DNA of 64,000 nt from Halosimplex salinum (GTDB taxonomy: Archaea > Halobacteriota > Halobacteria > Halobacteriales > Haloarculaceae). This document shows, in pieces, positions 5,167 to 44,315 of this stretch. Position numbers and translations under genes: made by a program. Under the pieces are notes generated by a model. The model was given only the letters and a program-made list of their open reading frames with translations, ran no database searches and was not told the DNA's origin. The DNA lies in contig NZ_QWGG01000001.1 of assembly GCF_003730195.1 (NCBI RefSeq), forward strand, positions 682,001-746,000, read 5' to 3'. The number at the start of each line of letters is the position of its first letter. Positions within the stretch are counted from its first letter, which is position 1.

Positions 5167-8061
5167 CTACCCCTTGATGTTACACACCGGGAACGTCCGG
5201 GCGACGCGGTCGCCGATGCCCAGTGCGTCCGAGACCCGGACGACTTCGTCCACGTCCTTGTAGACGCCGGGCGCCTCCTCGGCGACCGTGGCGCCGCTCT
5301 GGGCCTTCACGTAGACGTGGTCCTGCTCGCGCAGGTCGTCCTGCACGTCGCCGCCCCAGAACTCCTGTTTGGCCTGCGTCCGACTCATCAGTCGGCCCGC
5401 GCCGTGGGCCGTCGACCCGAACGTCTCCGAGAGCGACTGCTCGCCGCCCCGGAGGACGTAGCTCCCCGCGCCCATGCTCCCCGGGATGATGATCGGCTGG
5501 CCCACGTCGCTGTAGGCCGGCGGCAGTTCGGGTCGCCCGGCGGGGAACGCCCGCGTCGCCCCCTTCCGATGGACGAACAGTTCGCGTTCTTCCCCGTCCT
5601 CGACCTCGTGGGTCTCCTTCTTCGCGATGTTGTGGGCCACGTCGTACAGCAGGTCCATCTCCATCTCGGTGTGCGAGCGGTCGAACACCTTCTCGAAGAC
5701 CTGCCGGACCTGGTGCATGATCAGCTGTCGGTTCACCCACGCGAAGTTGATGGCGGCGCACATCGCGCCGTAGTAGTCTTCGGCGAGCTGTGAGCCGGCG
5801 GGCGCCGCCGCGAGTTCCTTGTCCGGCAACTGCTGAAGCAGCCCCGCGTGGGTCTGTTCGATCTCGCGGAGGTAGTCCGTACACACCTGGTGGCCCAGCC
5901 CGCGCGACCCGCAGTGGATCAGGACGACGATCTGGTCCTCGGAGAGGCCGAACTCCGCGGCCACGTCGTCGCGGTACACGTCCGTCACGCGCTGGACTTC
6001 GAGGAAGTGGTTGCCGCTCCCCAGACTCCCGATCTGGTTCTTCCCGCGGTCCTTGGCCTTCTGTGAGACCCGGCTGGGATCGGAGTCCGGCCGGACGCCC
6101 TCGTCCTCGCAGTGTTCGAGGTCCTCCGGGACGGCGTAGCCGTTCTCCAGCGCCCACTCCATCCCGCGGTCGAGGATGGCCTCGACGTCGTCGGCGGTCC
6201 CCTCGTGGACGCCGCCCCCGCCCAGCCCCGACGGGACGTTCGCGAACAGGGCGTCCACGAGTTCCTCCTCGCGGCCCTGCACGTCGTCGTACGTGAGATT
6301 CGTCTTCATCATTCGGACGCCGCAGTTCGAGACGACGAAGCCGTTCGCGACGAAGTTGTGCGCCTCGTGACTGACGCCGATGTCGTACACCTCTTTCCGT
6401 CCAGCTGGGTCAATAGCGACGACCTCGTCGGGTATCGCGAGATCGTCCCCGACTTCGACCTGCTCGCAGTATTCCTCGAAACCGGGGAACGCCTTCCCCG
6501 GACGAGGCCTGCCGTCACGGCCGCCCCAGATGCTCCGCTCCACGAAACGGCCGTTGATGTCGTACTCCGCCTTGATATCGCCGGGTTCACTCCCGCCGTC
6601 CGCGAGCGTCTGTGCCTCCGACGCGATCTCCTCTCTGCGTTCGATCTCTCGCTCCTTCGTACGGAGATACTGGATCGCTTTCACCGAGCGCCGCCGCTTC
6701 TTTTGATTGTATCGGTATCCAACCTGACTGAAGAATCGTAGCAGATTCTTCGAATCGTTCTTCACGCCGAGTCGAAGCCGAACCGTGTCGTGCTTGCTGT
6801 TCGAGTCGGTTTCGAACCGTTCGATCTCGTTCGTCTCGATTCCGAGACTGCCGAGGAACTCACGCATGTCGTCGTAGAACTGGAAGCCGTCCTCTGCCGT
6901 CCCGACCGTTCTCGTTTGTGAGACCTTCGGGCAGTAGAGGTTTTTATCGTGCTGAGCTGACGGCTCGTTCATCTCGGCACCGAAGTATGCACTGTAGAAC
7001 AGTGCGCGCTGCCAGTCGGTGAGCCTGTCGAGGAATTCGGGCGACGAGTAGCCGGATTCGACTTTCGGGCCCTCCGGTGCCCCGAGCGCTACGAGCAGTC
7101 GCCGGAACGCTTTCGATGTCGTCTTGAAACTGTACTCCGTCCGCTCGAACTCGTTCCCGTTGACCTCGTGACTCCGGTCGCGCTCGTAAATCTTGGACGG
7201 CTTGAAACCGACCTCCCGAACGTCGCTCCGGACTGCTTTGAGGTCCTCGGGCTCGGCGTAGAACCAGACCTGTCCAGGCCCGCCGTAGGAACCGTCACCG
7301 AGGAAGAACCCGAGTATCTTCAGCAGGTGGTTGAACTCGTCGTCCGTCGAGGACAGCGGCAACACGTCGCGGTCTTCGAGGACTCTGACGAGTTGCGGGT
7401 TCTCGTCTTCGAAATCTTCCTTCGTCAGTACCGTGAACTCCGAAGGCTCCTCGTGGTCGATACCTTCGAAAGGCTGGACTCTGACTTCGTCTCCGGTGGA
7501 GAGGTCGTCCAACTCTGTCATCCCTTCGGGCGTACGGAACGGATGATCTCCCGTCGCTTCGATGCGATGACCAGTCGCCGTCTCGACTTCGTACACTGGC
7601 TTCTCCTCGGATTGTGTAAACAGACGGATATCAGACGGGACCAGATCGTCACCGTCTGCGACCATCGCTTGCTCCTCCTCGAAACGCCCCTCTAGATTCC
7701 GGAGTTCCGTGCGCCGTCCGAACGACAGCCGAACCTCCGTGCCACCCGGCAAGCAGTTGATGTCGTAGCCGACCGCTCCGGGCGAAATACAGCCGTTTTC
7801 GGTATCGATGCCGGCGACGCCGCCGACGGGGAAGCCGTACCCCTGGTGGCCGTCGGGCATACAGACGGCGTACTTACGAACGCCGGGGAGGTGCGTCGCG
7901 TTCTTCAGTTGCTGGAGCGTCTTGTCGTCGCTGATCTCGTCGAGCAGGTCCTCGCTCGCGAGCACGCGCGCCGGTCGGTTCATCCCGCCCTCCTGTGGAA
8001 TCTCCCAGACGTAGTCCCTGACTTTCTCCAGGGTGATGCCGTCCGCGTCGTACGTGGTCAT
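5167..8061 (-). CDS. rtcB: RNA-splicing ligase RtcB interrupted by an intein
   Basis: A 964-residue precursor. Residues 1-102 and 580-964 join to a normal RtcB of about 487 residues. RtcB joins 2',3'-cyclic phosphate (or 3'-phosphate) and 5'-OH RNA ends through a GMP-histidine intermediate and seals archaeal tRNA exons. Family motifs include PDGHQGYGFPVGGVAG, YDIN/CGVR (the metal-ligand Cys, split by the intein), GSLGSGNHFLEVQ, VLIHCGSRGLGHQVCTDY, PIIIPGSMGAGSYVLRG and TAHGAGRLMSR (the guanylylated His). It lies three genes from the minus-strand start of a group that also encodes archease, its activating partner. A TATA-like CCTATTCC is centred about 27 bases upstream of the ATG. Confidence 0.95.
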   Translation of the reverse strand: MTTYDADGITLEKVRDYVWEIPQEGGMNRPARVLASEDLLDEISDDKTLQQLKNATHLPGVRKYAVCMPDGHQGYGFPVGGVAGIDTENGCISPGAVGYDINCLPGGTEVRLSFGRRTELRNLEGRFEEEQAMVADGDDLVPSDIRLFTQSEEKPVYEVETATGHRIEATGDHPFRTPEGMTELDDLSTGDEVRVQPFEGIDHEEPSEFTVLTKEDFEDENPQLVRVLEDRDVLPLSSTDDEFNHLLKILGFFLGDGSYGGPGQVWFYAEPEDLKAVRSDVREVGFKPSKIYERDRSHEVNGNEFERTEYSFKTTSKAFRRLLVALGAPEGPKVESGYSSPEFLDRLTDWQRALFYSAYFGAEMNEPSAQHDKNLYCPKVSQTRTVGTAEDGFQFYDDMREFLGSLGIETNEIERFETDSNSKHDTVRLRLGVKNDSKNLLRFFSQVGYRYNQKKRRRSVKAIQYLRTKEREIERREEIASEAQTLADGGSEPGDIKAEYDINGRFVERSIWGGRDGRPRPGKAFPGFEEYCEQVEVGDDLAIPDEVVAIDPAGRKEVYDIGVSHEAHNFVANGFVVSNCGVRMMKTNLTYDDVQGREEELVDALFANVPSGLGGGGVHEGTADDVEAILDRGMEWALENGYAVPEDLEHCEDEGVRPDSDPSRVSQKAKDRGKNQIGSLGSGNHFLEVQRVTDVYRDDVAAEFGLSEDQIVVLIHCGSRGLGHQVCTDYLREIEQTHAGLLQQLPDKELAAAPAGSQLAEDYYGAMCAAINFAWVNRQLIMHQVRQVFEKVFDRSHTEMEMDLLYDVAHNIAKKETHEVEDGEERELFVHRKGATRAFPAGRPELPPAYSDVGQPIIIPGSMGAGSYVLRGGEQSLSETFGSTAHGAGRLMSRTQAKQEFWGGDVQDDLREQDHVYVKAQSGATVAEEAPGVYKDVDEVVRVSDALGIGDRVARTFPVCNIKG
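6325..7755 (-). mobile_element. 477-residue intein with LAGLIDADG-type endonuclease region
   Basis: The intein occupies precursor residues 103-579. It starts CLPGGTEV (splicing block A, nucleophile Cys), has ATGDHPF (block B, T-x-x-H), and ends EAHNFVANGFVVSN before Cys580 (+1 nucleophile). The C-terminal Asn is present, but the penultimate residue is Ser instead of the usual His. The endonuclease region has one good LAGLIDADG-like helix (ILGFFLGDGSY, intein residues 147-157) and a weaker second one (ALFYSAYFGAEM, 251-262). A helical, possibly DNA-binding segment lies between about 360 and 420. The base composition is visibly more AT-rich than the flanking exteins, which suggests a separate history. 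Splicing would rebuild the RtcB metal site. Confidence 0.93.
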
Positions 8062-9277: not shown

Positions 9278-9691
9278 TCACACGTCGAAGACGACGTAGG
9301 CGTGCCAGCCGTCGTCGGTCTCCGAGAGGTCCATCTCGGAGTAGGTGACCGCCTTCAGGTCGCGGGCGTCGACGCTGTCGAGCGGGATGCCGCGGGCGGA
9401 GCAGTCCACGCGCCACTCGCCCTCAGCCTCGCCGACGGCCGCCTCGTTGTCGACCGGGAGGACGCCGCGCACGTCCCGTTCGTAGATGAGTTCGTCGAGG
9501 TAGTCGAACAGGAGCGCCTCGCGGTTCTCGGCAGCGACCGTGGTCTCGAAGCGCTCGCCGCCCTCCGCCGGGATCTCGTCGCACATCGCGGCGGCCATGC
9601 CGTCCGCGACCGCGCCGAACACCTCGCCGAGCGACTCGCCGGTCGCCTCGACCGCCACGTCGGCGGTGTGCTCGCGGAGGTCGAAGCTCAC
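9278..9691 (-). CDS. archease, RtcB activating protein
   Basis: A 137-residue protein with the archease pattern: an N-terminal FDLREHTADVAVEATGESLGEVFGAVADGMAAAM, the mid motif REALLFDYLDELIYERD, and the acidic C-terminal metal-site region AVTYSEMDLSETDDGWHAYVVFDV. Archease speeds RtcB guanylylation and multiple turnover. Its presence a few genes upstream of rtcB on the same strand supports both calls. The start overlaps the stop of the DUF502 gene by four bases (ATGA), which suggests translational coupling. The length is that of the family. Confidence 0.93.
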   Translation of the reverse strand: MSFDLREHTADVAVEATGESLGEVFGAVADGMAAAMCDEIPAEGGERFETTVAAENREALLFDYLDELIYERDVRGVLPVDNEAAVGEAEGEWRVDCSARGIPLDSVDARDLKAVTYSEMDLSETDDGWHAYVVFDV

Positions 9692-27542: not shown

Positions 27543-27548
27543 TTTTTT
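27543..27548 (+). promoter_or_regulatory. TATA element of bioB
   Basis: A run of six T residues is centred 28 bases before the GTG start. It is a plausible leaderless promoter for the biotin cluster. Confidence 0.5.
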
Positions 27549-27573: not shown

Positions 27574-28740
27574 GTGGTTTACGAGACCGGCAATCGTACG
27601 ATAGACGACGCCGTCGAGCGCGTGCTGGCGGGCGAGCGGCTCACCCGCCGCGACGGGCTGGCGCTGATCGCACAGCCGGTCGACGAACTGGCCGCGGCGG
27701 CCGACGCCGTCCGCGCGCACTTCGGCGACGGCACGGTCGACGCCTGCTCGATCGTCAACGCGAAGGCGGGCAACTGCGCCGAGGACTGCGGCTTCTGCGC
27801 CCAGTCGGTCCACTTCGACACGGGCATCGACAACTACGACTTCCTCGACCCGGAGTCGATCCTCGAATCGGCCAGACGCGCCGAGCGCGACGGCGCCCAG
27901 CGCTTCGGCATCGTCGTCGCCGAGAAAGGCGTCTCGAAGGAACGCCGCCCCGACGAGTGGGAGGAGGTCCTCCGGGCCATCAGACTGGTCCGCGACGAGA
28001 CCGACGTGGAGGTCGACGCTTCGCTCGGCATCCTCACCGAGGAGGAGGCCGCGATCCTCGCCGACGAGGGGCTCAACCACTACAATCACAACATCGAGAC
28101 CTCGCCGAACTTCTTCCCGGAGATCGTCGACAGCCACTCCTTCGAGGACCGGGTCGCGACGCTCGAAGTCGCCAAGGAGGCCGGGATGGACCTCTGTGCC
28201 GGCGTCATCCTCGGCATGGGAGAGAGCCCGACCGACCGCGTCGACGCCGCCATCGCACTGCAGGATATCGGCGTCTCCTCGCTCCCGGTGAACATCCTCA
28301 ACCCCGTCGCGGGGACGCCGCTGGGCGAGCGCTTCGACGACGGCGCCCGGATCACGACCGACGAGATCGTCGAGACCATCGCCGTCTACCGGTTGCTCCA
28401 CCCCGAGGCGCGCGTCCGTCTCACCGGCGGGCGCGAGGCGAACCTGGCCGAAGACGAGCAACACCTGCCCTTCGAAGCGGGCGCCGACGGCATGCTCACC
28501 GGCGACTACCTCACGACGGAGGGGCAGTCCCCCGCCGACGACATCGAGACCGTCGAGCGGGCGGGACTGGAGCCCAACACGGCGGCCAACGAGTTCGACC
28601 CGGCGGCAGTGAAAGCGCGCGAGGCCGACCGAAGGGAGGCCTCGGACGGAGCGAACGGCGAAGCCGTGAGCCGCGCGACCGACGCTGACGGCGAAACGGA
28701 GACCGCCGCGGGCAGCGCGACCAGCAACGTTTCCGACTGA
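27574..28740 (+). CDS. bioB: biotin synthase BioB
   Basis: A 388-residue radical SAM enzyme that inserts sulfur into dethiobiotin. The 4Fe-4S SAM cluster motif is C-x3-C-x2-C: Cys68, Cys72 and Cys75 in NCAEDCGFCAQS. Other family blocks are YNHNIETSPNFF, GVILGMGES, LPVNILNPVAGTPLG and RLTGGREANL. The start is GTG (MVYETGNRT), with a run of T at 27543-27548 centred 28 bases upstream. It opens a plus-strand cluster with bioF and bioD. The last 50 residues are an acidic, variable tail beyond the usual BioB end. Confidence 0.96.
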   Translation: MVYETGNRTIDDAVERVLAGERLTRRDGLALIAQPVDELAAAADAVRAHFGDGTVDACSIVNAKAGNCAEDCGFCAQSVHFDTGIDNYDFLDPESILESARRAERDGAQRFGIVVAEKGVSKERRPDEWEEVLRAIRLVRDETDVEVDASLGILTEEEAAILADEGLNHYNHNIETSPNFFPEIVDSHSFEDRVATLEVAKEAGMDLCAGVILGMGESPTDRVDAAIALQDIGVSSLPVNILNPVAGTPLGERFDDGARITTDEIVETIAVYRLLHPEARVRLTGGREANLAEDEQHLPFEAGADGMLTGDYLTTEGQSPADDIETVERAGLEPNTAANEFDPAAVKAREADRREASDGANGEAVSRATDADGETETAAGSATSNVSD

Positions 28741-28770
28741 GGACGCAGCTTCGAATCTCACCACACACGC

Positions 28771-29886
28771 ATGGACGACACGACATTCGCGGTACTCGGC
28801 ACTGGAGGCATCGGCAGACGAACGCTCGACGTCGCGCGGCACAAGGACGGCCTCACGCCGGTCGCGGCCTGTGACCGCAACGGCGTCGCCGTCGACCACG
28901 ACGGCCTCGACGTCGACGAACTCCTCGACGCGACCGAGGGGAACATCGCCTCGGGCCCGGACGAGTCGGCGGACGGCGACACGCCCGCGACGCCGACCAG
29001 CGACTACGCCTCCGACGGTGGAGCGACGGCAGTCGAAGGCGGAGCCACGACCGACAGCGTGAAACAGGCCGGCGAGGACGCCGGCATCGTTGCCAGCGAA
29101 CAGGGCCGACCCACCGAAACGCCAATCGACGACGTGATCGCCGAGAGCGACGGGATCGACGCCGTGCTGATCGCGCTCCCGAACCTCGAACACGACTTCG
29201 TCCCGCGGGTCGCCGAGCGCTTCGCCGCCGCGGACTACGAGGGCGTCCTCGTGGACGTGCTCAAGCGTTCGCGTGTCATCGGTATGCTCGACGACCGCTC
29301 GGAGACCCTCGAAGAGAGCGGCATCACCTTCGTCTGCGGCGCGGGCGCGACACCCGGCTTCCTGACGGGGGCGGCCGCGCTCGCCGCCCAGTCGTTCGTC
29401 GAGGTCGAGGAGGTCGAGATCTGGTGGGGCGTCGGCCTCAAGTCGGGCTACGAGGACAACCGCGGCACGGTCCGCGAGGACATCGCCCACCTCGACGGCT
29501 ACGACATCGAGACCGCTCGCGAGATGAGCGAGGAAGCGATCGAGGAACTCATCGAGGAACACGACGGCGAACTCGAGTTCCACGACATGGAGCACGCCGA
29601 CGACGTGCTGCTGGAGCGAGCAGGGATCTGCGACGCCGAGGACGTGTCCGTCGGCGGCGTCCTCGACGTGCGCTCCGACGAGAAGCCGACGACGACGACG
29701 GTCCGCGTCACCGGTCGCACCTTCGACGGCGAGCGTGGCACGAACACGTTCCAGTTGGACGACGCGACGAGCATGGAGGCCAACGTCAACGGCCCGGCGC
29801 TGGGCTACCTGAAGGCCGCGGTCCTGCGCAACCGCGCGGGCGACTACGGCGTCTACGGCCCCGCCGAGATCATGCCGACCTTCTGA
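28771..29886 (+). CDS. BioU-like NAD(P)-dependent oxidoreductase in the biotin cluster
   Basis: A 371-residue Rossmann protein starting VLGTGGIGRRTLDVAR (GxGGxG dinucleotide loop), with a 60-residue acidic insertion at about residues 53-118. Its conserved-looking core is VLIALPNLEHDFVPRVAERF, YEGVLVDVLKRSRVI (Lys165), CGAGATPGFLTGAAALAAQSF and GYLKAAVLRNRAGDYGVYGPAEIMPTF. It lies 30 bases after bioB and the cluster has no BioA aminotransferase. Cyanobacterial BioU replaces BioA by donating the amino group of an active-site lysine to 8-amino-7-oxononanoate. The size, fold and position fit that family, and Lys165 is the candidate donor. An alternative is a saccharopine-dehydrogenase-like enzyme of other function. 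Confidence 0.72.
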   Translation: MDDTTFAVLGTGGIGRRTLDVARHKDGLTPVAACDRNGVAVDHDGLDVDELLDATEGNIASGPDESADGDTPATPTSDYASDGGATAVEGGATTDSVKQAGEDAGIVASEQGRPTETPIDDVIAESDGIDAVLIALPNLEHDFVPRVAERFAAADYEGVLVDVLKRSRVIGMLDDRSETLEESGITFVCGAGATPGFLTGAAALAAQSFVEVEEVEIWWGVGLKSGYEDNRGTVREDIAHLDGYDIETAREMSEEAIEELIEEHDGELEFHDMEHADDVLLERAGICDAEDVSVGGVLDVRSDEKPTTTTVRVTGRTFDGERGTNTFQLDDATSMEANVNGPALGYLKAAVLRNRAGDYGVYGPAEIMPTF

Positions 29887-29944
29887 CGCCGCGACGGCTC
29901 CGTGGTGGCTCGCGTCTGCGGCCCGTTCGCACGGTTCGACTACG

Positions 29945-29950
29945 CTTTTG
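29945..29950 (+). promoter_or_regulatory. TATA-like element of the unknown gene in the biotin cluster
   Basis: CTTTTG is centred 27 bases before the ATG at 29974, so this gene may be expressed apart from bioB. Confidence 0.4.
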
Positions 29951-29973
29951 TCGGGACCCGACCGAAGAGTGTC

Positions 29974-30573
29974 ATGGACGAACTGGCGCCGTTCCACGAG
30001 TACTGCGAGTTCGGCGGGGACCGGGTGTACCTTCTCGTCGCGCTGGCGCGGGCCAAGGAGAACGAGGGCACGTCGAGCAACTCCGCGCCCGCGATCCGGA
30101 AGGTCGTCGAAGACGACGACCAGCTGGACCGCAAAGCGGCGGAACTGGCCCACGCGACGCGCCGCTTCGACGAGCGGTTCCGGCTCTACCTGACGGCGAA
30201 CGCCCGGGACGCGCTGAAAGCCACCTTCGAGCTCCGCCGGTCGATGGACGACTGGCTGGAAGCCCGCATCCACGGCGACGAGGGCGTCCGCGCGAAGTTC
30301 AGGCGGGTCGACAGCGAGTTCGAGTCGACGCTCCAGTCGGACACCTGTCGCGACGAGACGAACTTCGTCTTCGACCTCGACGACGCCGGAGCGGGCGAGA
30401 TGGACGCGCTGCGCGAGGAGTTACAGGAACACACGACCGTCTCGCTCGTCCGGGAGACGCCCAGCGGGTACCACCTCGTCACCGACCCGTTCGACTACAA
30501 CCACCTGGAGACCGAGATCGAGTACGAACTGAAGACCGACGGGATGGTCTTCGTCTCCTACGTCGGCGAGTGA
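29974..30573 (+). CDS. conserved-looking protein of unknown function inside the biotin cluster
   Basis: A 199-residue soluble acidic protein starting MDELAPFHEYCEFGG. The N-terminal 110 residues are helical (HATRRFDERFRLYLTANARDALKATFELRRSMDDWLEARI). The C-terminal part is beta-rich and contains NFVFDLDDAG, then VSLVRETPSGYHLVTDPFDYNH and ELKTDGMVFVSYVGE. D-x-D, then S-G-Y-H about 28 residues later, then a hydrophobic strand next to an Asp, resemble the three motifs of primase-polymerase folds, but the similarity is too short to claim. CTTTTG centred 27 bases before the ATG suggests its own promoter. A role in biotin synthesis is possible from position only. Confidence 0.7.
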   Translation: MDELAPFHEYCEFGGDRVYLLVALARAKENEGTSSNSAPAIRKVVEDDDQLDRKAAELAHATRRFDERFRLYLTANARDALKATFELRRSMDDWLEARIHGDEGVRAKFRRVDSEFESTLQSDTCRDETNFVFDLDDAGAGEMDALREELQEHTTVSLVRETPSGYHLVTDPFDYNHLETEIEYELKTDGMVFVSYVGE

Positions 30574-30649
30574 CCGACGGGGGCAGAACGGGGCGAGGCG
30601 ACGCCGACGGACCGAAAGGACGAGGGACCGGCCGCTCCCGGTTGCGGGT

Positions 30650-31867
30650 ATGACAGACCGCGGCTTCGACCTCGACGCGCGACTCGCCGAGCGCGAGCGG
30701 GCCGGCTTGCGGCGCCACCTCCGACCCGCCGAGTCCGTCGCGGCCCGCACCCGGTTCGCCGACGACCCCCGTGGCGGCGCGCCCGACTACGGCGAGGGGC
30801 GACTGGTGTTCGCCTCGAACAGCTATCTCGGCCTGGCCGACGACCGTCGGGTCCAGCGCGCGGCCGAACTCGCCGCTCGCTCGGTCGGGACGGGCGCCGG
30901 CGCCTCTCGCCTCGTGACCGGCGACACGGGCCTCCACCGCGCGCTCGAACGCGACCTGGCGGACTGCAAGGGGACCGAACGCGCGCTCGTCTTCTCGTCG
31001 GGCTACGCCGCGAACGTCGGGACGATCGAAGCGCTCTCGCCCGACGTCGTGTTCTCCGACGAACTGAACCACGCGAGCATCGTCGACGGCTGTCGGGTCG
31101 GCGCCGAGGAGACGGTCATCTACGACCACGCCGACCCCGCGGACCTCCGCGAGCGGATGGCCGCCCGTGCCGCGGACGCGAGGGGGGACGGGAGCGAAAC
31201 CGACGAGGACTGGCTCGTCGTCACCGACACCGTGTTCTCGATGGACGGCGACGTCGCACCGCTGGACGGGATCTGCGACGCCGCAGAGGAGTTCGGCGCG
31301 TGGGTGATGGTCGACGAGGCCCACGCGACGGGTCTGTTCGGCGACGGCGGTGGGGTCGTCCAGCGCGAGGGCCTCGCCGACCGCGTCGACGTGCAACTCG
31401 GGACGCTCTCGAAGGCCCTCGCCAGCCAGGGCGGCTACGTCGCCGGCGACGAGGCGCTCGTCGAGTACCTCCTCAACGCCGCCCGCTCGTTCGTCTTCTC
31501 GACGGGGCTCGCGCCGCCCGCGGTCGGCGCGGCGCGCGAATCGCTCCGGATCGCCCGCGAGACATCACGAGCCGACCGCCTCTGGGACACCGTCGAGGAC
31601 CTCCGTGCGGGCCTCGAGGCGATGGGCTACGACGTTCGCGGCGAGACGCAGGTCCTCCCGGTGATGGTCGGCGACCGCGACGACGCGCTCGAACTGGGCG
31701 ACCGACTCGCCGACCTGGGTGTCGTCGCCCCGGCGATCCGGCCGCCGACCGTCCCCGAGGGGACCGCCCGTATCCGCGTCGCACCGATGGCGACTCACAC
31801 GGAGACCGAGGTGGACCGGTGTCTCGACGCCTTCGAGACCGCTGGCCGGGAGGTCGGTCTGCTGTGA
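30650..31867 (+). CDS. bioF: 8-amino-7-oxononanoate synthase BioF
   Basis: A 405-residue PLP fold-type I enzyme (alpha-oxoamine synthase). The PLP lysine is Lys255 in LGTLSKALASQGGYVAG. Other family blocks are NSYLGLADD, GTGAGASRLVTGDTGLH, SGYAANVGTIEAL, DELNHASIVDG and VMVDEAHATGLFG. It condenses pimeloyl-CoA or -ACP with alanine to give the BioA/BioU substrate. The final GTGA overlaps the bioD start by four bases. No TATA element is obvious directly upstream, so read-through from the upstream genes is likely. Confidence 0.94.
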   Translation: MTDRGFDLDARLAERERAGLRRHLRPAESVAARTRFADDPRGGAPDYGEGRLVFASNSYLGLADDRRVQRAAELAARSVGTGAGASRLVTGDTGLHRALERDLADCKGTERALVFSSGYAANVGTIEALSPDVVFSDELNHASIVDGCRVGAEETVIYDHADPADLRERMAARAADARGDGSETDEDWLVVTDTVFSMDGDVAPLDGICDAAEEFGAWVMVDEAHATGLFGDGGGVVQREGLADRVDVQLGTLSKALASQGGYVAGDEALVEYLLNAARSFVFSTGLAPPAVGAARESLRIARETSRADRLWDTVEDLRAGLEAMGYDVRGETQVLPVMVGDRDDALELGDRLADLGVVAPAIRPPTVPEGTARIRVAPMATHTETEVDRCLDAFETAGREVGLL

Positions 31868-32559
31868 GCGACGCGAGCGTCGATGGGGAATCGGTCGTCG
31901 ACTTCGCCGTCGTCGGAACGGACACGGGCGTCGGCAAGACCGTCGTGACCGCCGGACTGGTCGGCTGGCTCCGCGCGGCGGGCGTCGACGCTCGCGCCGT
32001 CAAACCCGCCCAGACCGGCTATCCGCCGGACGACGACGCCGGCTTCGTCGCCGACGCCTGCGGGACCGGGGACGCCGCGACCTGTCTCGAACGCCTCGAA
32101 CCGCCGCTCGCACCCGCTGTCGCCGCCGACCGCGAGGGCGTCGACCTCTCGTACGACGATATCCTCGCGGGCTGTAAGCGCGAACTCGCGGACGCTGCCG
32201 TCGGCGTCGTCGAGGGGATCGGTGGCCTCCGCGTGCCGTTGACCGACGATACCGAGGTCGTCGACCTCGTCGCGGATCTGGACGTTCCCGCGCTCGTCGT
32301 CGCTCGCTCGGGATTAGGCACGCTCAACCACTCCGCGTTGACGGTCGAGGCGCTCGAACGGCGGGGCTGTCGCGTCCACGGCGTCCTCCTGAACCAGTAC
32401 GAGGGGGCCTCGACCGCGGAGCGGACGAACCCGGAGACGCTCGCGGCGATGACGGACCTCCCCGTATGGACGCTCCCGACGCTGTCGCTCGCCGAACCGG
32501 TCGAGGCCGTCGACGGCGTCCGTGAAAAACTTCCGGCGCGCGTGTTCCCGGGCGACTAA
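31864..32559 (+). CDS. bioD: dethiobiotin synthetase BioD
   Basis: A 231-residue P-loop enzyme that closes the ureido ring of dethiobiotin from diaminopelargonate, CO2 and ATP. The nucleotide loop is GTDTGVGKT (residues 18-26). Further family features are AVKPAQTGYPPDDDAGFVADACG and VVEGIGGLRVPLTDD. It starts with GTG inside the bioF stop codon (four-base overlap), which implies translational coupling. A much longer in-frame extension to 31300 runs through bioF and is spurious. It is the last gene of the biotin cluster. Confidence 0.93.
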   Translation: MSDASVDGESVVDFAVVGTDTGVGKTVVTAGLVGWLRAAGVDARAVKPAQTGYPPDDDAGFVADACGTGDAATCLERLEPPLAPAVAADREGVDLSYDDILAGCKRELADAAVGVVEGIGGLRVPLTDDTEVVDLVADLDVPALVVARSGLGTLNHSALTVEALERRGCRVHGVLLNQYEGASTAERTNPETLAAMTDLPVWTLPTLSLAEPVEAVDGVREKLPARVFPGD

Positions 32560-32774: not shown

Positions 32775-32808
32775 GAATCGCGGAAGCACCGTTTCGCGTC
32801 CGCGATTC
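32775..32808 (-). terminator. 10-bp perfect inverted repeat at the end of the Pta-N-like gene
   Basis: GAATCGCGGA (32775-32784) and TCCGCGATTC (32799-32808) are perfect complements with a 14-base loop. The repeat touches the stop codon of the minus-strand gene. It could be a 3' end hairpin or a stability element for the transcript. Confidence 0.5.
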
Positions 32809-33871
32809 ACTCGGAGTCCGCGAGGAGCGCCTCGACGTCTGCGTGGTCGGAGAGGAGTTCGACCATCCGGTCGACGGTCGCGGCGTCGCGGGTGCGTCCG
32901 GTGCTCAGTATGTCCTCGATCCGGTCGACGGTGACTTTCGTGTCCGACTGGACGAGGAGGACCGGCACGCCGGCCTGTGCCGCGTTCCCGAGGATGGCGC
33001 CGGACGGCCTGAGTCCGCCGGTGAGGACGATACACTCGATCCCGGGCGCCTCGAGGGCGGCCGCCTGGATCTCCGAGCGGTCGCCGCCGGTGACCATGGC
33101 GGCGTTGCGGAGCCTGCGGAAGTGCCGGAGCGCCGCGTCGCTCCCCATCGCGCCGACGGCGAAGCGCTCGACGAAGCCGTCGGTGTCCGACTCGGGGTTC
33201 AGCACGTCGGCGCCCAGCGCGTCGGCCAGGTCGCCGACCGTGATGCCCGCGAGTTCCTGCACCCGCGGGACCACGCCCAGGACGGGGATGTCACGCGACT
33301 CCAGGAACGGGACCACGTCGGTGTTCAGCGAGTCGAAGTTCCCGTCGGCGACGGCGTTGAACACCACGCCCGCGAGGTGGCCGTCGAACTGCCGGGCGGC
33401 GGCGAGCACCTCGTCCACGTCGGCGGGGTTCGAGTAGCCGGCGACGAGGACCGTCCGCGCGTCGAGCAGTTCCGCAACGTCCGGGTCGGTCAGGTCGACG
33501 ATGCCCCCGGTCGTCAGGCGACCGCCGCCCTCGACGACGACGAGGTCGTACCGCTCGGCCAGCGCCTCGAAGTGCTCGCGAACCCGCTGCTGGACCTCCG
33601 CACCGCGGTCGCCGCGGATGGCCTCCTCGACGAACGCAGGCGAGTACACCACCGGCTCGAGTTCCGACAGATCGTCGTCGATGCCGAGGATCTCCTTCGC
33701 CAGGAGCGGGTCCTCGTCGCGGGTCTTGCCGACGGGGCTCTGCAGTCGGGTCCCCTTCGGTTTGAAGTAGCCGACGTCGAGGTCGTTCTCCTGCGCGAGT
33801 TTCGCGACGGCGATCGCGATGGCTGTCTTGCCGGTGCCTTCTCCGGTGGACGTGACGAATATGGGTTTCAT
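32807..33871 (-). CDS. phosphotransacetylase-N-terminal-like P-loop protein (BioD-like ATPase plus DRTGG domain)
   Basis: A 354-residue protein. Residues 1-215 form a dethiobiotin-synthetase-like P-loop domain (STGEGTGKTAIA, VVVEGGGRLTTGGIVDL, VLVAGYSNPADVDEVL). Residues 215-330 form a DRTGG domain (AMVTGGDRSEIQAAAL, IECIVLTGGLRPSGAIL, LLVQSDTKVTVDRIED). The pair is the regulatory half of long bacterial phosphotransacetylases, here without the catalytic Pta domain. It overlaps the ADP-forming acetate-CoA ligase gene by four bases (ATGA), so it may sense or regulate acetyl-CoA/acetate flux. It has no relation to biotin synthesis despite the fold. Confidence 0.85.
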   Translation of the reverse strand: MKPIFVTSTGEGTGKTAIAIAVAKLAQENDLDVGYFKPKGTRLQSPVGKTRDEDPLLAKEILGIDDDLSELEPVVYSPAFVEEAIRGDRGAEVQQRVREHFEALAERYDLVVVEGGGRLTTGGIVDLTDPDVAELLDARTVLVAGYSNPADVDEVLAAARQFDGHLAGVVFNAVADGNFDSLNTDVVPFLESRDIPVLGVVPRVQELAGITVGDLADALGADVLNPESDTDGFVERFAVGAMGSDAALRHFRRLRNAAMVTGGDRSEIQAAALEAPGIECIVLTGGLRPSGAILGNAAQAGVPVLLVQSDTKVTVDRIEDILSTGRTRDAATVDRMVELLSDHADVEALLADSE

Positions 33872-35970
33872 AGTTCCTCCTGGTCGATGGTGAGTCGGAC
33901 GTCGACGGCCTGGACGCCGTCGGGCGTCGCGACGAGCGGGTTGATGTCTAACTCGACGATAGCCGGGAAGTCGGTGACGAGCTGTGAGAGTCGCTGGATC
34001 GTCTCCACGACGCCGTCTTCGTCGACGGGGTCGCGGCCGCGAGCGCCCCGCAACAGCGGCGCGGCGTCGATCTCGGTGAGCATCTCACGGGCCGACGGTT
34101 CGCTGACCGGCGCGACGCGGACGGTCGTGTCCTCCAGCACCTCGACGAAGATGCCGCCGAGGCCGAAGAGGACGAGCGGGCCGAAGCCGGGGTCGCGGTT
34201 CATCCCGGCGATGGTCTCGACGGCGCTGTCCATGTCGAGCATCTCCTGGACCTGCACGCCGAGGACCGTCGCGTCGGGCTGGTAGTTGCGCGCCCGGGTC
34301 ACGAGGTCCTCGTAGGTGTCGGCGACGTCCTCCGGCGACACGCCGACCGCGACCCCGCCGATGTCGGACTTGTGGAGGATGTCCGGGCTGACGATCTTCA
34401 TGACAACCTCGCCGTCACCTGCGATCCGGTCCGCCGCCTCCACCGCGTCGGCGCGACTGTCGACGATCTCGGCGTCCGGCGTCGGGATACCGTAGGCGTC
34501 GAGCAGGCCCATCGCCTCGACGCCGAGGCGGTTCGAGTTCCGGCGGTCCGCGGCTTCGAGGATCCCGCGGGCGGCGTCGCGGTCCACGTCGAACGTCTCC
34601 GGTTCGGTGTACTCGCGGCGACTGATCTCGCGGTACTCGCGGAGCGCGTCGAGGCTTCGGACCGCTCGCGCGGGGTCGAAGAACGTCGGGATGCCGGCGG
34701 TCGAGAGCGTGTCGTTCGCGCTGCGGGCGGAGGACCCGCCCATCAGCGTCGCGGCGACGGGCATCTCGTACTCGGCCTGCAGGTCGACGACCGCCTCGGC
34801 GAGCGCGTCGTACGAGAGCGTCGCCGTCGGGCAGGCGACGACGACGGCGGCGCCGACGTTCGGGTCCGCGAGCGCGACGTCCAGCGCGTCCTCGAAGCGC
34901 TCGACGGGCGCGTCCCCGATAATGTCCACCGGGTTGTAGACGTTCGCCTCGTCGGGGAGCGCCGCCCGGAACGCCTCGACCGTCTCGTCGGTGAACGAGG
35001 CCAGCGAGAGGTCCGAGTCGCCGACGGCGTCCGTCGTCATCACGCCCGGGCCGCCGGCGTTGGTGACGATGGCGACGCCGTCCTGCTCGGGGAGCGGCTG
35101 TCCGGCGAGGATGCTCCCGAAGTCGAAGAGGTCCTGGACGGACTCGACGCGGAGGACGCCGGCCTGGTCGAGCGCCGCCTCGTAGGCCCGCTCGGAACCC
35201 GCGATGGCGCCCGTGTGCGAGGCCGCGGCCGACGCCCCCGCCTCCGTTCGGCCGGACTTGACGACCACGATGGGCGTCTCCCGGCTGACCTCGCGGGCGG
35301 CCTCGACGAACGCTCGGCCGTCGACGACGTCCTCGAGGTAGCCCAGGATGACGTCGGTGTCGGGGTCCTCGCCCCACTCGGCGACGAAGTCGCTCTCGTC
35401 GAGGACGGCCTTGTTGCCCAGCGAGACGACGTTGTGGAAGCCGAGGTTGCGGTCGTTGGCCCAGTCGACGACGGCGGTGACGAACGCGCCCGACTGGCTC
35501 ATGAAGGAGATCGACCCCTCCTGCGGGCTCTCGGGGCCGAACGTCGCGTTCATGCCGACGCCGGTGTTCACGATACCGAGGCTGTTGGGACCGACGAGGT
35601 TGAGGTCGTGCTCGGCGGCGATCTCGCGGAGTTCCCGCTCGCGAGAGGCGCCCTCGCTCCCGGACTCGCCGAAGCCCGCCGTGATGACCACGACGTTCTG
35701 GACGCCGGCCTCGGCGGCCTCCCGGATGGCGTCGATGACGATGGACGGCGGGACGACGACGACCGCCGCGTCCACGTCGGGGACCGCCCCGACGCTGTCG
35801 TGTGACTCCAGACCCAGCACCTCGTCTTTCGTGGGGTTGACGGCGACGACGTCCCCCTCGAAGCCGTCGAGGAGGTTCGCCGTGATCGCCCGGCCGACAG
35901 ATCCCTCGCGATCCGTCGCGCCCACGACGGCGATCCGATCGGGGCTGAAGAGTGTTGCTAACTGGCCCAT
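33868..35970 (-). CDS. acetate-CoA ligase (ADP-forming), fused alpha and beta chains
   Basis: A 700-residue enzyme that converts acetyl-CoA (or another acyl-CoA), ADP and phosphate into acid, CoA and ATP. The alpha part has a CoA-binding Rossmann domain (IAVVGATDREGSVGRAI), VGPNSLGIVN, SQSGAFVTAVVDWA and the phospho-histidine His252 in AASHTGAIAGSE. The beta part is an ATP-grasp unit (GIPTPDAEIV, VVMKIVSPDILHKSDIGGVAVGV, PLVLFGLGGIFVEVLED). In haloarchaea this enzyme makes acetate from excess sugar-derived acetyl-CoA. It shares a transcript with the Pta-N-like protein. CTTTATAAGC is centred 30 bases upstream. Confidence 0.93.
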   Translation of the reverse strand: MGQLATLFSPDRIAVVGATDREGSVGRAITANLLDGFEGDVVAVNPTKDEVLGLESHDSVGAVPDVDAAVVVVPPSIVIDAIREAAEAGVQNVVVITAGFGESGSEGASRERELREIAAEHDLNLVGPNSLGIVNTGVGMNATFGPESPQEGSISFMSQSGAFVTAVVDWANDRNLGFHNVVSLGNKAVLDESDFVAEWGEDPDTDVILGYLEDVVDGRAFVEAAREVSRETPIVVVKSGRTEAGASAAASHTGAIAGSERAYEAALDQAGVLRVESVQDLFDFGSILAGQPLPEQDGVAIVTNAGGPGVMTTDAVGDSDLSLASFTDETVEAFRAALPDEANVYNPVDIIGDAPVERFEDALDVALADPNVGAAVVVACPTATLSYDALAEAVVDLQAEYEMPVAATLMGGSSARSANDTLSTAGIPTFFDPARAVRSLDALREYREISRREYTEPETFDVDRDAARGILEAADRRNSNRLGVEAMGLLDAYGIPTPDAEIVDSRADAVEAADRIAGDGEVVMKIVSPDILHKSDIGGVAVGVSPEDVADTYEDLVTRARNYQPDATVLGVQVQEMLDMDSAVETIAGMNRDPGFGPLVLFGLGGIFVEVLEDTTVRVAPVSEPSAREMLTEIDAAPLLRGARGRDPVDEDGVVETIQRLSQLVTDFPAIVELDINPLVATPDGVQAVDVRLTIDQEEL

Positions 35971-42357: not shown

Positions 42358-42708
42358 TCAGTAGAACGACCGCGCCGCCGCCTTCCACTCCTCGCCCTTC
42401 CGTACGTCGTCGGGCCAGCGGCTCCGTCCGAGGGACTTCATCCGGGTCGCGAGCGTCCAGTCGTCGACCCGTTCGGGCCCGTCGTCCTCGGCGGCCGCGG
42501 CGGCCGCCGCGACGTGCCGGTCGTGGAGGTGAGCGCCGACGGCCGAGGCGATGGCCGCCGCCTCCGCCGCGTCTGCGTTCGCCGGGAGCGACAGCGACAC
42601 CTCGTCGCCGTCGAGGGTGAGCGTCACCGTCTCGCCGCCGTCGGCGGTGCCCTCCGGCCGGTCCGTCGATTCCGTCCCGTCGCCGTCTGTCTGTGCTGAT
42701 TCGGCCAT
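42358..42708 (-). CDS. pccX: PccX-like small subunit of propionyl/acyl-CoA carboxylase
   Basis: A 116-residue acidic protein that overlaps the carboxyltransferase stop codon by one base (TAATG). The N-terminus is disordered. The middle is TVTLTLDGDEVSLSLPANADAAEAAAIASAVGAHLHD, and the conserved-looking tail is VDDWTLATRMKSLGRSRWPDDVRKGEEWKAAARSFY. Haloferax mediterranei has a small third subunit, PccX, needed for propionyl-CoA carboxylase activity and encoded next to pccB. Size, position and the W-x-x-A-x-R tail fit that. It has no biotin-attachment motif. Confidence 0.8.
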   Translation of the reverse strand: MAESAQTDGDGTESTDRPEGTADGGETVTLTLDGDEVSLSLPANADAAEAAAIASAVGAHLHDRHVAAAAAAAEDDGPERVDDWTLATRMKSLGRSRWPDDVRKGEEWKAAARSFY

Positions 42709-44315
42709 TACAGTGGGATGTTACCGTGGTCTTTCGGCGGGCTGTCCTCGCGCTTGCGTTCGAGCATCTCCAGGTCCCGAATCAGGCGCTTGCGCGTGTC
42801 CTTCGGTTCGATCACGTCGTCGAGGTAGCCCCGTCTCGCGGGGCCGTACGGGTGGGCGAACTCCTCGCGGAACTCGTCCATGAGTTCCTGGCGCCGGGCG
42901 TCGGTGTCTTCGGCCTGCTGGAGCTCCTTCCGGTAGAGGATGTTCACCGCGCCGCGGGGGCCGAGCACCGCCATCTCGGAGGCCGGCCAGGCGTAGTTGA
43001 CGTCCGACCCGAGGAACTTCGAGGACATGACGATGTACGCGCCGCCGTAGGCCTTCCGAACGACGACCGAGAGCAGCGGCACCGTCGCCTCGGCGTAGGC
43101 GTAGATGAGCTTCGCGCCCCGGCGGATGATGCCGTTGTGCTCCTGGTCGGTGCCGGGCATGAACCCCGGCACGTCGACCAGCGAGACGATGGGCACGTTG
43201 AACGAGTCGCACGTTCGGATGAACCGAGCGGCCTTCTCCGAGGCGTCGATGTCGAGCGTGCCCGCGCTGACGCGGGGCTGGTTGGCGACGATGCCGACGA
43301 CCCGACCGTCCATGCGCGCGTACCCGACGACGACGTTGCGCGCCCAGTTCTTGTGCACCTCGAAGAAGGAGTCTTCGTCGACCACGCGGTCGATCACCTG
43401 CGTCATGTCGTAGGGCTTGCGCGGCGCCTCCGGCACGATGTCGGTGATGCCGTCGAGTTCCCGGTCGGGGTCGTCCCACGACGCCACCCGCGGCGGGTCC
43501 TCCATGTTGTTCTGGGGCAGGTACGAGAGGAGCCGTCGGATGTTGTCGAGCGCCTCCTCCTCGTCCGAACAGGCGAAGTGCGCGACGCCCGACTTCGTGG
43601 AGTGGCTCCCCGCGCCGCCGAGTTCCTCCTTGGACACCTGCTCGCCGGTGACCGTCTCGATCACGTCCGGCCCGGTGATGAACATGTGCGAGGTGTCCTG
43701 CACCATGAACGTGAAGTCGGTCAGCGCCGGCGAGTAGGTCGCGCCGCCCGCGCAGGGGCCCATGATCGCCGATATCTGGGGGATCATCCCCGAGGCCTTC
43801 GTGTTGCGCTCGAATATCTTGGCGAACCCGACGAGCGAGTCGACGCCCTCCTGGATGCGGGCGCCCCCGGAGTCGTTCAGGCCGACGACTGGCACCCCGG
43901 CGTCGGTGGCCCGATCCATCACCTTGCAGATCTTCTCGGCGACCACTTCCCCCACCGACCCGCCGAGGACGGTGAAGTCGTGGGCGAAGACGAACACCTT
44001 CCGGCCGTTCACGTCGCCGTAGCCGGTGACGACCGCGTCGCCGGGGAACTCCTTCTCGTCCATCCCGAAGTTGGTCGAGCGGTGCTCGACGAAGGCGTCT
44101 ATCTCGGTGAACGTCCCGTCGTCGAGGAGGTACTCGACCCGCTCGTGGGCGGTCATCTTCCCGCGGGCGTGCTGGCGCTCGATGCGCTCCTCGCCGCCGC
44201 CGACGCGCGACTCCTCGCGGCGCCGGCGTAGTTCTTCGAGCGGCGTCTCCTCGTTCGCCTCGCCCGCGTCGACTGTGTCCGTCTCGGTCGTGTCGTCTGT
44301 CTCTTCCTGGCTCAT
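42708..44315 (-). CDS. pccB: acyl-CoA/propionyl-CoA carboxylase carboxyltransferase subunit PccB
   Basis: A 535-residue carboxyltransferase that moves CO2 from carboxybiotin to propionyl- or acetyl-CoA. It has paired crotonase-like domains. The N-terminal one has GGGEERIERQHARGKMTAHERVEYLLDDGTF, and later GLNDSGGARIQEGVDSL and GPCAGGATYSPALTDF. The C-terminal one has FMPGTDQEHNGIIRRGAKLIYAYAEATVPLL and AYGGAYIVMSSKFLGSDVNYAWP. The window lacks the biotin carboxylase/BCCP subunit. It sits one base after the SDR reductase stop and is coupled to pccX, in an operon that needs the biotin made by the cluster at 27-32 kb. Confidence 0.94.
   Translation of the reverse strand: MSQEETDDTTETDTVDAGEANEETPLEELRRRREESRVGGGEERIERQHARGKMTAHERVEYLLDDGTFTEIDAFVEHRSTNFGMDEKEFPGDAVVTGYGDVNGRKVFVFAHDFTVLGGSVGEVVAEKICKVMDRATDAGVPVVGLNDSGGARIQEGVDSLVGFAKIFERNTKASGMIPQISAIMGPCAGGATYSPALTDFTFMVQDTSHMFITGPDVIETVTGEQVSKEELGGAGSHSTKSGVAHFACSDEEEALDNIRRLLSYLPQNNMEDPPRVASWDDPDRELDGITDIVPEAPRKPYDMTQVIDRVVDEDSFFEVHKNWARNVVVGYARMDGRVVGIVANQPRVSAGTLDIDASEKAARFIRTCDSFNVPIVSLVDVPGFMPGTDQEHNGIIRRGAKLIYAYAEATVPLLSVVVRKAYGGAYIVMSSKFLGSDVNYAWPASEMAVLGPRGAVNILYRKELQQAEDTDARRQELMDEFREEFAHPYGPARRGYLDDVIEPKDTRKRLIRDLEMLERKREDSPPKDHGNIPL

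Follow-up and report, generated by a model that had tools for sequence, protein, structure and literature searches.

Elsewhere, the step between BioF and BioD is performed by BioA (S-adenosylmethionine-8-amino-7-oxononanoate transaminase), a PLP enzyme unrelated to BioU that turns over many times and takes its amine from S-adenosylmethionine. The closest described relative of the protein discussed here is BioU of Synechocystis sp. PCC 6803, Slr0355 (Sakaki et al. 2020, Nat Chem Biol 16:415). In the cyanobacterial BioU reaction, 8-amino-7-oxononanoate undergoes NAD(P)H-dependent condensation with Lys124, the conjugate is then carboxylated, and NAD(P)+ drives the release of the diamine carbamate, leaving the lysine irreversibly altered (PMC12915131). 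A 2026 paper describes the late biotin steps as conserved, with the exceptions of “certain Cyanobacteria species, and Haloarchaea”, and cites the 2020 BioU paper at this point (PMC13336041). Judging from that passage, BioU in haloarchaea appears to be in the literature already, so that the present result amounts to a sound revision of how the gene is labelled, rather than to a discovery.

The biotin gene cluster of Halosimplex salinum

The window (the whole stretch of 64,000 nucleotides that was analysed) contains, on the plus strand and in this order, bioB, the gene of a 371-aa Rossmann oxidoreductase (bioU), a gene encoding a 223-aa protein, bioF and bioD. The successive gaps from bioB to bioD are 30, 15, 76 and -4 bases, so that the arrangement is operon-like. 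The relevant features are the following:

27574-28740, plus strand: bioB, biotin synthase; probably starts with the GTG at 27574, in an open reading frame that opens at 27547; TIGR00433, 341 bits against a cut-off of 225; Radical_SAM and BATS domains
28771-29886, plus strand: bioU, predicted enzyme for the step from 8-amino-7-oxononanoate to DAPA, 371 aa; phmmer match to Slr0355, NF047886, structure match
28933-29082, plus strand: acidic insertion of about 50 residues, at about residues 55-104 of BioU; alignment gap, pLDDT below 50 at 59-100
29263-29265, plus strand: encodes Lys165, which corresponds to the suicide lysine Lys124; alignment to the K124A entry 6itd
29593-29595, plus strand: codon of His275, equivalent of His233; alignment to the H233A entry 6k38
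29902-30573, plus strand: gene of a 223-aa protein, located after bioU and before bioF; no family assigned in Pfam or NCBIfam
30650-31867, plus strand: bioF, 8-amino-7-oxononanoate synthase; top NCBIfam match TIGR00858, 388.9 bits, slightly below the 426-bit cut-off
31864-32559, plus strand: bioD, dethiobiotin synthase; TIGR00347, 119.6 bits against a cut-off of 83.3; 4-base overlap with the end of bioF
32807-35970, minus strand: AAA_26/DRTGG protein and adjoining ADP-forming acyl-CoA synthetase; pair located immediately downstream from bioD

A first-pass annotation of this DNA considered bioB, bioF and bioD certain and noticed a Rossmann oxidoreductase within the cluster, with bioA missing. 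The family searches agree on all of these points: bioB and bioD score above the respective cut-offs, the bioF assignment is the best match for its gene although slightly under the cut-off, the oxidoreductase is encoded at 28771-29886, and no bioA is detected in the window.

The 223-aa gene, which that annotation had not mentioned, is found in this genus and in a few other Haloarculaceae. FDLDD and TPxGYHxVT are conserved motifs of its product; viral contigs scanned for the gene yield no match, and the predicted structure, with a mean pLDDT of 46, is too poor to be classified by structure. This gene probably lies outside the core biotin pathway. Elsewhere in the window, a gene for a 964-aa RtcB RNA ligase (5167-8061, minus strand) is split by an intein-type insertion (Intein_splicing domain) and is followed by an archease gene at 9278-9691.

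Identity and catalytic residues of the 371-aa protein

A phmmer search of the PDB sequences identifies the Slr0355 entries as the only strong relatives of the 371-aa protein, with an E-value of 1.4e-79. The alignment spans residues 104-371 plus 7-54, with 141 of the 314 aligned positions identical (45%; about 43-45%), the cyanobacterial side of this comparison being one sequence, Slr0355. The NCBIfam model for BioU, NF047886, matches with 327.9 bits (E 5.9e-98); the 600-bit naming cut-off of this model, which is an annotation threshold and not a biological feature, is reached neither by this protein nor in any of the 295 genomes sampled in the phylum. The closest named BioU copies come from Halosimplex, with identity of up to 91%. 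Residues 10-15, GTGGIG, form the NAD(P)-binding Rossmann glycine motif, the glycines of which are invariant in the alignments. The structure predicted by AlphaFold from 47 haloarchaeal sequences (mean pLDDT of 81.7) also resembles BioU: Foldseek aligns it to 6itd with a TM score of 0.94, the scores across all five crystal structures of BioU being 0.93-0.94 (by target length). VIA-align yields Z-scores of 41.9-42.6 and rmsd of 1.6-1.9 Å for all five entries (6ir4, 6itd, 6k36, 6k37, 6k38), with Z 42.6 and 1.7 Å over 322 residues for 6k38. The top non-BioU structure is carboxyspermidine dehydrogenase, at Z 20.3. The matching fold that had been proposed from the first look at the sequence is thus recovered, with Z of about 42 versus 20.3 for the next protein, and the original label, “BioU-like”, understates what is a full orthologue of BioU.

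The alignment to Slr0355 breaks at approximately residues 54-55 and resumes at approximately 104-109, where the haloarchaeal protein contains the acidic insertion. In the AlphaFold model, residues 59-100 are predicted with very low confidence (pLDDT below 50), and this stretch is probably disordered. The insertion is missing from Slr0355 and is variable in length among haloarchaea; the most divergent haloarchaeal copies of BioU consist of 332-335 aa, and the others mostly of 340-390 aa. An insertion at residues 53-118 had been suggested as the full explanation of the larger size; the size difference is indeed accounted for, but the inserted segment is shorter, at about 55-104.

The alignment with Synechocystis BioU that the first-pass annotation had proposed as a check places Lys165 opposite Lys124: in the PDB entry 6itd, titled BioU (K124A), an alanine is located exactly at this position, and in 6k38, titled BioU (H233A), an alanine is located opposite His275. 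The chain numbering confirms both equivalences: the distance from the lysine to the histidine is 109 residues in Slr0355 (124 to 233) and 110 residues in the Halosimplex protein, where one residue is inserted. All 147 haloarchaeal copies examined contain a lysine at the position of Lys165 and a histidine at that of His275, and both residues are invariant in an alignment of 124 distinct sequences. The description of Lys165 as a lone lysine holds for the VLVDVLKRS motif but not for the entire protein, which contains six lysines (25, 98, 165, 224, 305 and 348); among these, only Lys165 is invariant in the 124 sequences. Conservation of the suicide lysine without exception in the examined haloarchaeal copies argues that single turnover has been selected in haloarchaea as well, with the proviso that the presence of a lysine is not proof of its consumption.

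Distribution and the BioA step in Halobacteria

Among 391 Halobacteria genomes, bioB is found above the cut-off in 177, bioU is strongly matched in 150 and bioD is found in 151. The last two genes occur together in 150 genomes, bioU never occurs without bioD, and a single genome has bioD without bioU. According to this survey, about 38% of the sampled Halobacteria genomes would fill the missing BioA step via BioU. The order bioB-bioU-bioF-bioD, on the same strand, is found in 101 of 111 loci. In Haloferax mediterranei, the bioU position is presumably occupied by HFX_5078, by its number. The flanking genes of this organism, HFX_5076 (bioD), HFX_5077 (bioF) and HFX_5079 (bioB), respond jointly when the Lsm protein is lost (PMC10779274). 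In some haloarchaea, the complete set of bioB-bioU-bioF-bioD resides on large plasmids, namely plasmid 2 of Natronococcus occultus and pHl5678-1 of Haloferax larsenii. In 28 of the 391 genomes, bioB is kept and both bioU and bioD are missing; among the 16 of these that were inspected, bioF is kept in 3, one of which retains bioU remnants beside bioB. Thus, many Halobacteria hold bioB after the loss of bioU, bioD and usually bioF, which suggests that these organisms use scavenged dethiobiotin.

The assignment has to be weighed against two other readings of the locus. A class-III aminotransferase encoded elsewhere could perform the BioA step, the 371-aa protein having some other role, and four class-III aminotransferases do score on the bioA model (TIGR00508) in the searched genome (5.07 Mb in 28 contigs, 99.98% complete). 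All four are well below the cut-off, the best one reaching 228.8 bits against 405, and they fit other families better, namely an ArgD/LysJ-type transaminase, two ArgD/GabT-like class-III transaminases and HemL. The search for bioA elsewhere in the genome, suggested beforehand as a check, therefore yields none over the cut-off. The same cut-off is reached in none of the 391 Halobacteria genomes, compared with 6 of 14 control genomes and with the 150 Halobacteria that combine bioU and bioD, so that an aminotransferase in this role is extremely improbable. The same can be said of the suggestion that the oxidoreductase belongs to the dehydrogenases of the amine, diaminopimelate or saccharopine type, reductively aminates some substrate using free ammonia and resides in the biotin operon by chance: the general fold is common to carboxyspermidine, amine and lysine dehydrogenases (Z 18-20), whereas the match to BioU has a Z-score of 42 and 43-45% identity and includes the same lysine and histidine, and the survey detects bioU solely in the company of bioD. 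Taken together, the orthology and fold, the conserved Lys165 and His275, the operon context, the lack of bioA and the co-occurrence with the pathway are best compatible with BioU filling the BioA step here. The probability is put at about 0.92 that 28771-29886 encodes BioU and that this product performs the step for which other organisms use BioA.

Since fold, lysine and histidine are all shared, the reaction is expected to be that of Synechocystis BioU. The product of BioF, 8-amino-7-oxononanoate, would condense with the Lys165 epsilon-amine to give an imine. After reduction of this imine by NAD(P)H, the adduct would be carboxylated, and an NAD(P)+ step would free the diamine carbamate. Because the lysine nitrogen would remain in the product, the enzyme would be spent; ring closure would be left to BioD and sulfur insertion to BioB. 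By analogy with the cyanobacterial protein, haloarchaeal BioU is most likely a single-turnover lysine donor. A BioU that turns over many times, using a free amine donor or regenerating the spent lysine, would escape the considerable cost of a one-shot enzyme, and the codon bias of bioU, similar to that of bioB and only modestly above that of bioF, does not point strongly to very high expression. However, if the amine came from a free donor, some lineages should have lost the lysine, whereas Lys165 and His275 are kept in 147 of 147 copies; multiple turnover thus appears very unlikely. As for the codon bias itself, which is equal in bioU and bioB, slightly lower in bioF and clearly lower in bioD, it is a weak proxy for expression given that the related genomes are not independent; the stronger bias of bioU and bioB, BioB being another enzyme that spends part of itself, is weakly suggestive of a need for more protein. 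Single turnover by lysine donation accordingly stays the preferred description of haloarchaeal BioU.

Source of pimelate and comparison with known systems

The first-pass annotation also reported no pimelate-forming gene, and for bioC, bioH and bioW this holds for the genome: a family search finds no bioW, and the matches to bioC and bioH are generic and below threshold. No carrier-protein domain or acyl carrier protein is found in the genome, which encodes a BioY-type biotin transporter. It can be tentatively proposed, with the odds somewhat against it, that haloarchaea combine the one-shot BioU step with an undescribed acyl-carrier-protein-free route to pimeloyl-CoA. A possible origin of pimeloyl-CoA is beta-oxidation of fatty acids or dicarboxylates, with activation by an ADP-forming acyl-CoA synthetase. 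The synthetase and DRTGG protein pair directly downstream of bioD was considered for pimelate activation and rejected; it is located near the operon in just 26 of 111 loci, mostly in Haloarculaceae, so that its link to biotin is weak. Approximately 10 kb from the biotin operon, the window also encodes an acyl-CoA carboxylase carboxyltransferase subunit with a small adjoining gene (42358-44315, minus strand), likely a biotin-dependent enzyme.

Among the haloarchaeal counterparts, NATOC_RS19850 from Natronococcus occultus and KU306_RS16140 from Haloferax larsenii share the bioB-bioU-bioF-bioD order and about 75% identity with the protein described here; they differ in being plasmid-borne and in being recorded as “hypothetical protein” or “transcriptional regulator”. 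In the records of plasmids from Haloferax, Haladaptatus, Natronococcus and Natrinema, bioU continues to bear one or the other of these names, and the sampled records in which it does so merit correction. Compared with Synechocystis BioU, the Halosimplex protein shows 45% identity, contains an acidic, probably disordered insertion of about 50 residues, and is encoded in a bioB-bioU-bioF-bioD operon of an archaeal host in which no acyl carrier protein was found; the two proteins nevertheless share homology over the whole length, the fold, the nucleotide-binding glycine motif, the lysine and histidine pair, and the position in the pathway.
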